Positions 32,501 through 35,073 of a DNA stretch of 64,000 nucleotides are shown in pieces. Made by a program: the position numbers and the translations under genes. The notes under the pieces were generated by a model, which worked only from the letters and a program-made list of their open reading frames with translations, ran no database searches and was not told where the DNA came from. The DNA lies in the NCBI RefSeq assembly GCF_964199755.1, contig NC_133906.1:19715419-19779418 (forward strand), given 5' to 3'. This stretch comes from Larus michahellis (lineage: Eukaryota; Chordata; Aves; Charadriiformes; Laridae). Position 1 is the stretch's first letter; every line of letters begins with the position of its first letter.

Positions 32501-35073
32501 GAGTATAGCTCCATATTCGTATGGTCTGATCTTTGCTTCCTGAGGCCAGGTAACAACCTTTCTTCGTGGTTGTGTCCTGTGTCAGCTCCCCATTTGGAAC
32601 TTTGCCTTCCTCTGAAGGAACTATTGAATACCATTGAAGCCATGTTATTGTACTTTAAAATTCAAAGCTTTATAAAACTTAAAATATATTGATTTGTATC
32701 AGAACGTACTTTATTGAACTTTCCAGTTGCCTTTGCTTAGCTACTTACTGACTTTCTACAAGGAATTCAAGTCTCTAGAGGACGTTTACATGAACTACAA
32801 ACCACTTCACAAACTATTAATCACTTCTACGTACCTTGGAGCTCATCTTGCCAAGCAGATAACCTTTCTTCACCAGGAACAGGGCACCAGGCCAGACAAT
32901 GTATTTCATCGTCATGACCTCTTAGCCGATGGAGTACTTCTCTTTTCCTGCTGATATCAATTATAACCACCATGCCATCCTTGTAGCTACAAACAGAGGC
33001 TTAAATTAACAAAGAGATTCTTGGATCCTTGTGGAATAATATCTGAGCCGATTTCCAAGCTCTTCACCAGGATCGTTACCACCATTTTACAGACAGAGAA
33101 GCCAAATCACAAGCAGCAATGGGACTAACAGACTAACGGTCAATAGGACTCCAGTATAGCACTGGTGTACCTGCAGCTGCCTTTTCAAGAAGTGCAACCA
33201 GTACATTTAGCTTCAAGAATGACAGCAATTGGTTAGTAATACGGCTATCAGAAACGTAAAAAAAATCCAACAGTGGCTTTTATACAAGGAAAACTTTTCC
33301 CTTTAACACAAATGCATACTACTTTCATTCCATCCCTCCCCTTGTGTTTGTTCTCCTTCAAGATAACTCTATCATCGAGTCTAAAGGGCTTTCATGCCCT
33401 GCTCTCGTCAATAGTCTTGGGTGTCTAAAGGACTGGAATTGCAGTGGCTGACGAAAGCCTAGAAAAACTAAAAAACTCTCTTCAGATCAAGTAACCTATA
33501 ATGCAAGAAACACCAGCAAAGTCTAATTAAAAAACAACAGTTTAAACAAACTTCAGAGATGCAAACCAAACCTGGACCCTTACATTGTTACGGATTTCAA
33601 TGTCTTTCAGGTCTACCAAATCTAAACATTATTTCTAAATTACTGTATACCAGAACAAAAAAACAGCCACCAAACCCTCTGAAAAATAACCTTACAATTG
33701 TGTAGCAAAAATTCGCAGTAAGGCTCTTGCAGAAGAAGAATGGAAAACAAAACGTAATGAATATTTACCCAATCGCCACAAGGTTTTCATGATGAGGAGA
33801 ACAAGTGAGACAAAAAATCGTCCGAGGCTCTGGAAAGAACTGCTGGCTGTCACTTCTGTTGTGCCAGTAACAAACAATTATACCTTTTTCATCACCGGAT
33901 ACAATCAGATCTTTCACAAGAGGTGACCAGTGCAACACTGAGATCGCGTTCTGAAGAAAAAGAATTGAATAGATTTAAAGCTGTTTTACCACCATCTAGC
34001 ACAGAATAACAGGCAGAAGATAATCTGTGAGTACCCCCCAGCACCAGCCGAGTTTGTTCTAAAGCGTTTCAGTTCTTTTGGGCTTTGGCATGATGCCGAT
34101 ATGGTGTCCTGGGTGACAGCAACTGTTCAAATGTATGTTCTCAGTCTGTCCCGTGTGGAACAATAACTTGCTGAGAAGACTTTAAATGAGCTGGGTTAAA
34201 TGGCAATGAGTATGTGCTGCGAGCATAATTGCTTACTGAGGCTTTGATGGTAACCAACAGCTTATTGAGGTGATGTAACGCCGCTGCAGACCTACGGCTA
34301 GAAAAAAAAGCTGGCCAGAAGCATTCAACGGTTTTAATTTTATCGGGTTTGAAACTCACCTTTGCTCAAGTAACATCACCCTGCCTGGCGTGCAAGACCT
34401 CCAAAAACCCACCCCACCCTCTGAGTTCATTCTGCCTCACCCTCTCTGTCCCTGCAGTGGTGGCTCCCGGCTGGGCACCCTACCTGGTTTAGGCTGTGCT
34501 CCGCCACCGGAGAAGCCCCTACCTGGTGCAGGCTGTGCTCCGCCACCGGAGCCAGGGCCTCCGTGTCCCAAATCTGGACGCTCCCATCGTCGGAGCTGCT
34601 GGCGCAGAGGCTGCTCTGCCCTGGGCACTGGCAAAACACGAATCCGGAGATCCTGTCCGTGTGCCCGATGAGTTCTCCTGCACCGACAGCAAGAGACCGC
34701 GATAGGACCACCTTCCCAAACCCGGTCCCCCCCGGGGCTCCCGCTGCCTCCCCGACCCCCGGGACTCCTCTGCCCAAGCGGCTCCCGGCAGAGGGGCGGC
34801 CCCGCTGGGCCGGGCCACCCCTATAAAAGGCCGGCGGGGGGAGGGATTGCTGCCGGCGGGCCCGTAGAATCAAGAAAGGCCGCCAGCGGGCCCGTGGTCC
34901 CCGCAGGCGCGGGTCATGCCGGTACCGTAAAACGCGGGTGCGCCGCCGCTAACATCCAGCAGGCAGACGCGGTGCCTCGCCGCGAAGCCGAAGAGGCGGC
35001 CATCGCCGCTGGTGTCGCTGCAGCGGCTGCTGTACCAGTTGGGCGAGGCGGGCAGCACCCGCACCGCCGCCAT
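17348..35073 (-). CDS. GEMIN5: Gem-associated protein 5 (SMN complex snRNA-binding subunit), 28 coding exons
   Basis: GEMIN5 recognises the Sm-site region and cap of pre-snRNAs for the SMN complex in the cytoplasm, and also binds ribosomes and mRNA. I joined 28 coding exons with compatible phases into 1,530 residues (human about 1,508). Each is listed separately. The order is: N-terminal PNWY aromatic pair (W13, Y14, used for RNA/cap contact in the family); a WD-repeat region making two propellers (about residues 50-735) with clear [15 protein letters not shown] blades; a Lys-rich and acidic linker (about 720-845); the helical TPR-like dimerisation region (about 850-1115); and a C-terminal RNA-binding part with a coiled-coil-like [15 protein letters not shown] segment. 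The start at 35073 has G at -3 and +4 and gives the family's N-terminal length. It is divergent with MRPL22 and convergent with CNOT8. The oddity is a duplicated donor at exon 2. Confidence 0.97.
18171..18267 (-). CDS. GEMIN5: GEMIN5 coding exon 27
   Basis: Acceptor TTGACAG, donor GTAAGT. It encodes [20 protein letters not shown]. Confidence 0.94.
18715..19291 (-). CDS. GEMIN5: GEMIN5 coding exon 26 (large C-terminal exon)
   Basis: The longest exon, 577 nt. It encodes [15 protein letters not shown], a long acidic low-conservation stretch, then [19 protein letters not shown] and a Gln-rich tail. This covers the non-canonical RNA-binding part of the protein. Donor GTAAGC. Confidence 0.94.
19924..20086 (-). 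CDS. GEMIN5: GEMIN5 coding exon 25
   Basis: Acceptor CTGTAG, donor GTAAGT. It encodes [20 protein letters not shown] and [15 protein letters not shown]. Confidence 0.95.
20755..21012 (-). CDS. GEMIN5: GEMIN5 coding exon 24
   Basis: Encodes [18 protein letters not shown] and onward to SNSHPKQ, 86 codons, with donor GTAAAT. Its acceptor TATAG follows directly on a (TTA)n microsatellite instead of a normal polypyrimidine tract. Confidence 0.94.
21014..21033. repeat. (ATA)n microsatellite at a GEMIN5 acceptor
   Basis: About six uninterrupted trinucleotide units, followed by an A run on the + strand. On the coding strand it reads T run, then TTA repeats, then TAG at the start of exon 24. Confidence 0.9.
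21651..21861 (-). CDS. GEMIN5: GEMIN5 coding exon 23
   Basis: Acceptor TTTTCAG, donor GTGAGT. It encodes [20 protein letters not shown], then [20 protein letters not shown], ending in phase 0. Confidence 0.95.
22746..22865 (-). CDS. GEMIN5: GEMIN5 coding exon 22
   Basis: Acceptor GCATCAG, donor GTGAGT. It encodes [20 protein letters not shown] and DGHYSMAAK. Confidence 0.95.
22988..23135 (-). CDS. GEMIN5: GEMIN5 coding exon 21
   Basis: Acceptor TTTGCAG, donor GTTGCT. It encodes [20 protein letters not shown] and [14 protein letters not shown], the most conserved part of the helical domain. Confidence 0.95.
23681..23818 (-). CDS. GEMIN5: GEMIN5 coding exon 20
   Basis: Acceptor CCAACAG, donor GTATGT. 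It encodes [20 protein letters not shown] and [15 protein letters not shown], the TPR-like dimerisation helices. Confidence 0.95.
24105..24200 (-). CDS. GEMIN5: GEMIN5 coding exon 19
   Basis: Acceptor GGTTTAG, donor GTCAGT. It encodes [20 protein letters not shown]. Confidence 0.94.
24789..24917 (-). CDS. GEMIN5: GEMIN5 coding exon 18
   Basis: Acceptor TTTTTCAG, donor GTATTA. It encodes [20 protein letters not shown] and [12 protein letters not shown], which opens the helical region. Confidence 0.95.
25368..25481 (-). CDS. GEMIN5: GEMIN5 coding exon 17 (linker)
   Basis: Acceptor CCACAG, donor GTTAGT. It encodes a Ser/Lys-rich linker ending KKDPPKEKQ. Conservation with human is low except near the end. 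Confidence 0.9.
25991..26218 (-). CDS. GEMIN5: GEMIN5 coding exon 16 (basic/acidic linker)
   Basis: Acceptor TTTACAG, donor GTAATA. It encodes a disordered linker with the basic cluster [12 protein letters not shown] (a possible nuclear signal), followed by an acidic [12 protein letters not shown] stretch. Confidence 0.94.
26468..26639 (-). CDS. GEMIN5: GEMIN5 coding exon 15
   Basis: Acceptor AATAAG, donor GTAAGT. It encodes [20 protein letters not shown] and [10 protein letters not shown], the last WD blade. Confidence 0.95.
27103..27242 (-). CDS. GEMIN5: GEMIN5 coding exon 14
   Basis: Acceptor follows a T-rich tract ending TTCAG; donor GTATTG. It encodes [20 protein letters not shown] and SACYDGTAQ, a complete blade. 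Confidence 0.95.
27345..27526 (-). CDS. GEMIN5: GEMIN5 coding exon 13
   Basis: Acceptor TTCCAG, donor GTAATG. An upstream GTAGGT at 27348 would break the frame. It encodes [20 protein letters not shown] and [15 protein letters not shown]. Confidence 0.93.
27880..27953 (-). CDS. GEMIN5: GEMIN5 coding exon 12
   Basis: Short exon between CTACAG and GTATGT. It encodes [20 protein letters not shown] and GNEDG. Confidence 0.95.
28690..28826 (-). CDS. GEMIN5: GEMIN5 coding exon 11
   Basis: Acceptor GGACAG, donor GTGAGT. It encodes a Gly-Glu-rich turn and then [20 protein letters not shown], ending in phase 0. Confidence 0.95.
29465..29559 (-). CDS. GEMIN5: GEMIN5 coding exon 10
   Basis: Acceptor CACCTAG, donor GTGAGT. 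It encodes [20 protein letters not shown] and [11 protein letters not shown]. Confidence 0.95.
29987..30072 (-). CDS. GEMIN5: GEMIN5 coding exon 9
   Basis: Acceptor CTTGCAG, donor GTAAGA. It encodes [20 protein letters not shown], a highly conserved blade. Confidence 0.95.
30783..30995 (-). CDS. GEMIN5: GEMIN5 coding exon 8
   Basis: Exactly 71 codons between TTCTTCAG and GTAAGT. It encodes [13 protein letters not shown], then [14 protein letters not shown], the start of the second propeller. Confidence 0.96.
31581..31740 (-). CDS. GEMIN5: GEMIN5 coding exon 7
   Basis: Acceptor TTTGCAG, donor GTAAGA. It encodes [16 protein letters not shown] and [15 protein letters not shown], ending at SMDRD in phase 0. 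Confidence 0.95.
32168..32300 (-). CDS. GEMIN5: GEMIN5 coding exon 6
   Basis: Acceptor CCATAG, donor GTAAGT. It encodes [14 protein letters not shown] and [12 protein letters not shown]. The Trp-rich stretch corresponds to the part of the propeller that contacts RNA in the human protein. Confidence 0.95.
32492..32620 (-). CDS. GEMIN5: GEMIN5 coding exon 5
   Basis: Acceptor TCAATAG, donor GTAAGT. It encodes a variable linker, then [20 protein letters not shown], which is a textbook WD blade. Confidence 0.95.
32835..32986 (-). CDS. GEMIN5: GEMIN5 coding exon 4
   Basis: Acceptor TTTGTAG, donor GTACGT. It encodes [20 protein letters not shown] and [22 protein letters not shown] blades of the first propeller. 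Confidence 0.95.
33050..33175 (-). mobile_element. Possible MIR/core-SINE relic in GEMIN5 intron
   Basis: The + strand contains accattttacagacagagaa and, further on, aggactccagtatagcactg. Spacing and words resemble a reverse-complemented MIR-type SINE (CCCATTTTACAGATGAGGAA and following). Identity is weak and ends are unclear. Confidence 0.4.
33769..33950 (-). CDS. GEMIN5: GEMIN5 coding exon 3
   Basis: Acceptor TTCTTCAG, donor GTAAAT. It encodes residues 102-162, including [18 protein letters not shown] and the [16 protein letters not shown] blade. Confidence 0.95.
34478..34551. repeat. GEMIN5: 39-bp tandem duplication over the GEMIN5 exon 2 donor
   Basis: Bases 34478-34512 and 34517-34551 match at 33 of 35 positions with a 39-bp offset. 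Each copy contains the last coding bases of exon 2 (VAEHSL..Q) and the same donor, CAG then GTAGGG on the minus strand. As 39 is a multiple of three, both donors leave the frame intact. Confidence 0.92.
34523..34677 (-). CDS. GEMIN5: GEMIN5 coding exon 2 (proximal donor)
   Basis: Encodes residues 50-101, the first full WD blade, ending EHSLHQ. The acceptor is GTGCAG and the donor is GTAGGG at 34522. A 39-bp tandem copy of this exon end gives an equal donor at 34483; using it extends the exon to 34484 and keeps the frame. Confidence 0.88.
34822..34829 (+). promoter_or_regulatory. TATA-box-like element in GEMIN5 intron 1
   Basis: TATAAAAG in GC-rich surroundings, oriented to the + strand about 400 bp before the MRPL22 start codon. 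It could mark an upstream MRPL22 or antisense start, but may be chance. Confidence 0.25.
34926..35073 (-). CDS. GEMIN5: GEMIN5 coding exon 1
   Basis: Encodes residues 1-49, with PNWY and [12 protein letters not shown]. The donor is a weak GTACCG at 34925, chosen because its phase (1) matches exon 2 and restores a Gly-Glu-Leu junction. Confidence 0.88.

Follow-up and report, generated by a model that had tools for sequence, protein, structure and literature searches.

Does a short duplication at the end of GEMIN5 exon 2 give this gene two splice donors, and which of the two would be used? We addressed this question in a 64,000-nucleotide window of the Larus michahellis genome (contig NC_133906.1, positions 19,715,419 to 19,779,418), in which GEMIN5 lies on the minus strand; all coordinates below are positions in this window. 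We found that the last bases of exon 2 and the first bases of intron 2 are present in two nearly identical copies, so placed that a second donor lies in frame with the first. Probably, a considerable fraction of GEMIN5 transcripts is spliced at the downstream donor, which would add 13 residues to the first WD40 propeller of the protein. Published papers are cited by accession number, from excerpts of their text.

The end of GEMIN5 exon 2 is duplicated

On the minus strand, positions 34551 to 34517 and 34512 to 34478 are direct copies of 35 nt each. The copies are identical at 33 of 35 positions (94%), and their start-to-start spacing is 39 bases. Both mismatches fall on two adjacent bases, GC in copy 1 and AA in copy 2 (CTGCAC and CTAAAC). 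The 4-base linker GCTT, which separates the copies, is unlike the bases that precede copy 1 or those that follow copy 2. The parts of the duplication are as follows.

34517 to 34551, minus strand: repeat copy 1 (upstream), the final 29 bases of exon 2 and the first 6 of the intron; found by self-match
34513 to 34516, minus strand: 4-nt linker GCTT, unlike either flank
34478 to 34512, minus strand: repeat copy 2 (downstream), the same 29 exon and 6 intron bases with two adjacent bases differing from copy 1; found by self-match

The initial annotation had described a 39-bp tandem duplication. Its match count and 39-base offset stood, but the 39 bases are made up of a 35-bp repeat and a 4-nt linker and do not form a perfect 39-bp unit.

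We scanned the window for self-matches (35 bases, at least 33 matching, offsets of 12 to 200) and found that these copies were the sole pair in the 64 kb. The same scan returned no pairs in 20 random 64-kb sequences with the base-to-base transitions of the window and none in 1,000 random 700-base sequences modeled on the local GC-rich region (34400 to 35100). We concluded that the short tandem duplication in GEMIN5 exon 2 consists of adjacent, high-identity direct copies beyond chance. It was absent from the Tandem Repeats Finder output for the window, because it holds fewer than two full units. A 231-base query across the duplication found one match in the 1.405-Gb assembly (616 contigs; one candidate scored), its own locus, which speaks against another near-identical copy in the assembly, be it a second locus, a haplotig, or a retrocopy. 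This exon 2 DNA query therefore gave no retrocopy that could serve as a proxy for the splice form.

The region is GC-rich (65% in the exon core and 64% in the insert), which lends something to the view that the repeat is an assembly or sequencing artefact or else one allele of a polymorphism. However, neither the two-base difference nor the linker of its own is expected from simple stutter or an overlap error. A true but unfixed allele may be compatible with both features. Taken together, we consider an artefact or allele very unlikely.

As to how the duplication arose, the GCTT linker hints at bases added during break repair or slippage. A short hairpin at the left edge of copy 1, where that copy starts, is a possible cause.

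34537 to 34552, minus strand: short hairpin GCTCCG/CGGAGC, six base pairs with a 4-nt loop

Both possible ends of exon 2 keep the GEMIN5 reading frame

We compared the three minus-strand frames of 15 kb with the PDB, reading stops as X and numbering the coding blocks as exons. Fifteen blocks lay in order along human GEMIN5 chains, from the N-terminus to about residue 725/740 (5h3s_A numbering, converted). For the central TPR-like dimerisation domain, all three frames had table matches to 6rnq and 7xdt, both Gem-associated protein 5. Judged by the order in which its exons cover the N-terminal double WD40 domain, the locus is a GEMIN5 orthologue, and it looks like a working gene across the aligned N-terminal part. 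The exons that concern us here are listed below.

34926 to 35073, minus strand: coding part of GEMIN5 exon 1, with ATG at 35073 and donor ACG/GTACCG, by alignment to the GEMIN5 chain 5h1j_A
34523 to 34677, minus strand: GEMIN5 exon 2 core, 155 nt, with the upstream donor CAG/GTAGGG at its end; 51 whole codons align gap-free to Gem-associated protein 5
34484 to 34522, minus strand: possible 39-nt exon extension, 13 residues, with the downstream donor CAG/GTAGGG at its end, from sequence and frame only
33769 to 33950, minus strand: GEMIN5 exon 3, by alignment and splice sites

Exon 2 starts at 34677, preceded by ...GGTGCAG, and holds the first WD repeat; exon 3 begins at 33950, directly after CTTTTTCTTCAG. 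The assignment to GEMIN5 exon 2 and the splice coordinates 34523, 34484, and 33950, all proposed in the initial annotation, were correct. Splicing from the upstream donor (34523) would give an exon 2 of 155 nt, and splicing from the downstream donor (34484) would give one of 194 nt, adding 13 in-frame residues between WD blades 1 and 2. Translation returned the same peptide that had been predicted. What had been called the distal donor is the downstream one, which splicing usage calls proximal, that is, proximal to the intron (PMC2423196).

An open frame across such an insert is common. We simulated donor-spanning duplications and found that 1,009 of 3,025 stayed in frame and that 926 (31%) were both in frame and free of stops. 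We therefore rejected frame retention as a sign of selection or function; it is weak evidence and not evidence of function.

Human GEMIN5 lacks the insert

We aligned the longer predicted form to the PDB with a cut-off of 1e-30. Four distinct Gem-associated protein 5 sequences were among the matches listed, and the 13-residue insert was missing from 4 of these 4 human sequences, as the initial annotation had stated. The three printed alignments each had a single clean 13-residue gap; for the fourth sequence, 125 query residues were aligned with 112 chain residues, the same difference. By these alignments, human GEMIN5 has the short form, without the insert. The human double WD40 domain (5gxh, 5h1j, 5h3s, and 5tee) is the same domain of the same gene, with conserved flanking residues, but it has no insert at the exon 2-exon 3 join, after position 109 of 5h3s_A. 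HMMER set the gap one residue earlier, a placement equivalent to the exon 2 end because Q stands on either side. The placing of the insert between the first and second WD blades was supported. In the usual WD40 layout, the join between blades 1 and 2 is a loop that links the final strand of blade 1 with the first strand of blade 2. According to a review, 5TEE, 5H3S, and 5H1J are structures of human GEMIN5 (PMC11965781), and the GEMIN5 double WD40 domain binds the Sm site and the cap (PMC11965781, PMC7311978).

In the GEMIN5 literature on alternative splicing, isoforms, and chicken splice variants, we noticed no report of the insert, although this look was limited and is no proof of absence. 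The excerpted text of PMC8105379 held nothing on the loop between blades 1 and 2. Pattern scans of viral and prokaryotic contigs gave 51 and 37 matches, respectively, none of which was confirmed as a relative, as expected there.

The two copies also differ in how closely they resemble the human protein. Copy 1 encodes SLHQ, with three of four residues as in human ALHQ, and copy 2 encodes SLNQ. From this comparison, copy 1 is the one that keeps the conserved exon end. This fits a silent copy, in which the ancestral upstream donor alone would be used, copy 2 would be intronic, and the protein would be unchanged. However, the 35 bases hold just two changes between the copies, side by side and perhaps from one event; these are too few for good dating or a selection test and so do not separate relaxed from constrained evolution. 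A silent copy also has to contend with a second donor that is identical across nine bases and is preceded by copied exon. We regard it as unlikely, while giving it some weight.

The two donors are equal in motif

Both donors read CAG/GTAGGG and are identical at the nine usual positions, as had been noted before; thus, any nine-base score ties. We scored donors with donor frequencies and calculated pairing energies with the 5' end of U1. The comparison set was the 14 other donors, from blocks 1 and 3 to 15, with the block 14 site chosen by hand as the frame-consistent one (4.6 and not 4.8). Both twin donors scored 8.98, which is higher than 9 of the 14 other placed GEMIN5 donors. U1 pairing was -11.2 kcal/mol at each, stronger than at 12 of the 14. 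The lowest score among the placed donors belonged to the weak exon 1 donor, ACG/GTACCG (34926, minus strand), at 1.8. By motif, then, acceptor 33950 has two sequence-competent donors.

Three points lead us to expect appreciable use of the downstream donor: its shorter distance to the acceptor, a motif equal to that of the upstream donor, and the copied exon that makes up most of the sequence just before it. Copied exon sequence accounts for 29 of the 39 bases that separate the donors. In a large two-donor reporter assay with random sequence between the sites, motifs in the intervening sequence set the ratio (described in PMC7826271), and we take the copied exon here to favor the downstream site mildly. 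Among human pairs of competing, nonoverlapping donors, the intron-proximal site was the major one in 872 and the distal site in 598 (PMC2423196).

Several observations weigh on the other side. The human pairs had unequal donors on average, and so the counts of 872 and 598 are only a rough guide (PMC2423196). In intron 2 (minus strand), two donor-like sites outscored the twin donors, 34441 with 9.16 and 34360 with 12.35; a good score is thus no proof of use. These sites paired less well with U1 (-9.5 and -10.7, respectively, versus -11.2). A manual read-through showed that use of 34441 would shift the frame and that 34360 lies beyond an in-frame stop, so that neither would give an open in-frame product. 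That such high-scoring sites would break the frame is also a point for a silent copy, since a good motif may go unused. Finally, local folding left the upstream donor a little more accessible at three of the four fold sizes: the mean unpaired probability was 0.36, 0.41, 0.28, and 0.32 at the upstream donor and 0.25, 0.21, 0.25, and 0.35 at the downstream donor.

The same evidence bears on constitutive lengthening, in which the downstream donor alone would be used and all GEMIN5 would carry the 13 residues as one isoform. The nearness of the downstream site to the acceptor with an equal motif and the human bias toward intron-proximal sites (PMC2423196) both fit this. On the other hand, we found nothing at the upstream donor that would make it weaker: its motif is identical and, in most of the folds, it is a little more accessible. 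An exclusive switch of this kind strikes us as improbable.

We also set aside two other ideas. Structure-gated donor choice had no support: the fold of 34440 to 34600 was not clearly stabler than its shuffles (z of -1.44, with 18 of 200 shuffles folding as well), and the accessibility of the donors differed little. A new intron between the copies (Rogers-type gain) was rejected as our main reading, since 39 nt is, to our knowledge, too short to be plausible as a vertebrate intron, and its removal would leave a donor anyway.

A model for the twin donors

We propose that a short tandem duplication doubled the 29 last bases of exon 2 along with the first 6 of the intron and placed a 4-nt filler between the copies. 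The outcome would be two in-frame donors at a distance of 39 nt, equal in their match to U1 snRNA, which would compete for acceptor 33950. According to this model, a substantial share of transcripts would be spliced from the downstream donor, whether or not the upstream donor is used as well, and this would place 13 residues in the loop between blades 1 and 2 of the first WD40 propeller. Use of the upstream donor would give a protein of ancestral length. We give this reading, duplication-born twin donors with the downstream one substantially used, a probability of roughly 0.6, a figure that includes constitutive lengthening. We infer that either or both donors are used and that the fold would tolerate the insert. 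The site is thus a candidate alternative 5' splice site that owes its origin to a short tandem duplication, an ordinary kind of change.

Other features of the window

Positions 35131 to 35169 hold four tandem copies of the 10-bp unit GCCGTCGCAA. They lie between the start of GEMIN5 and a possible divergent coding start at about 35.2 kb, which we take to be MRPL22-like, and this region looks like a shared promoter. Positions 6846 to 8083 are GC-rich; both strands carry long open frames that overlap there, and the stretch is perhaps a CpG-island promoter rather than genes. Positions 58106 to 58223 hold 1.9 copies of a 62-bp unit with an 82% match. Rfam had no match within the window.

Relation to known systems and meaning

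The arrangement resembles three kinds of published cases. Alternative 5' splice site exons in human and mouse sets likewise have two donors per acceptor and an exon extension (PMC2423196), which in GEMIN5 keeps the frame. The GEMIN5 case differs in that the donors are identical copies from a duplication, known here from DNA; its 39-nt extension also falls outside the overlapping 3- to 6-nt class stressed in that paper. The GNNK+/GNNK- donors of c-KIT are likewise two in-frame donors that add a few residues, 4 versus 13 in GEMIN5, and the ratio of the isoforms varies by tissue (PMC12818652). The c-KIT forms were measured in transcripts, whereas those of GEMIN5 are predicted from sequence, and the excerpt of that paper does not attribute the c-KIT pair to duplication. 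Intron gain by tandem duplication likewise involves a short AGGT-bearing duplication that multiplies splice signals (PMC4974935). In GEMIN5, the duplicated AGGT was already an exon-intron junction, and so the result would be an extra donor and not a new intron.

The locus looks like a natural experiment with two identical donors, limited in scale to a single gene of a single genome, and the product of that gene takes part in building the splicing machinery. GEMIN5 helps deliver snRNAs, U1 included, for snRNP assembly. Because U1 snRNP supply can sway which of two equal donors is chosen and GEMIN5 aids U1 delivery, it is conceivable, although a distant prospect, that there are two GEMIN5 isoforms, which differ at the rim of the WD40 domain that binds snRNA and cap, and that their ratio could feed back on snRNP supply in this lineage. 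If only one donor is used, the locus still tests what decides between equal donors. If both are used, it would illustrate how directly a 39-bp duplication can yield a new isoform, changed within a conserved RNA-binding domain.

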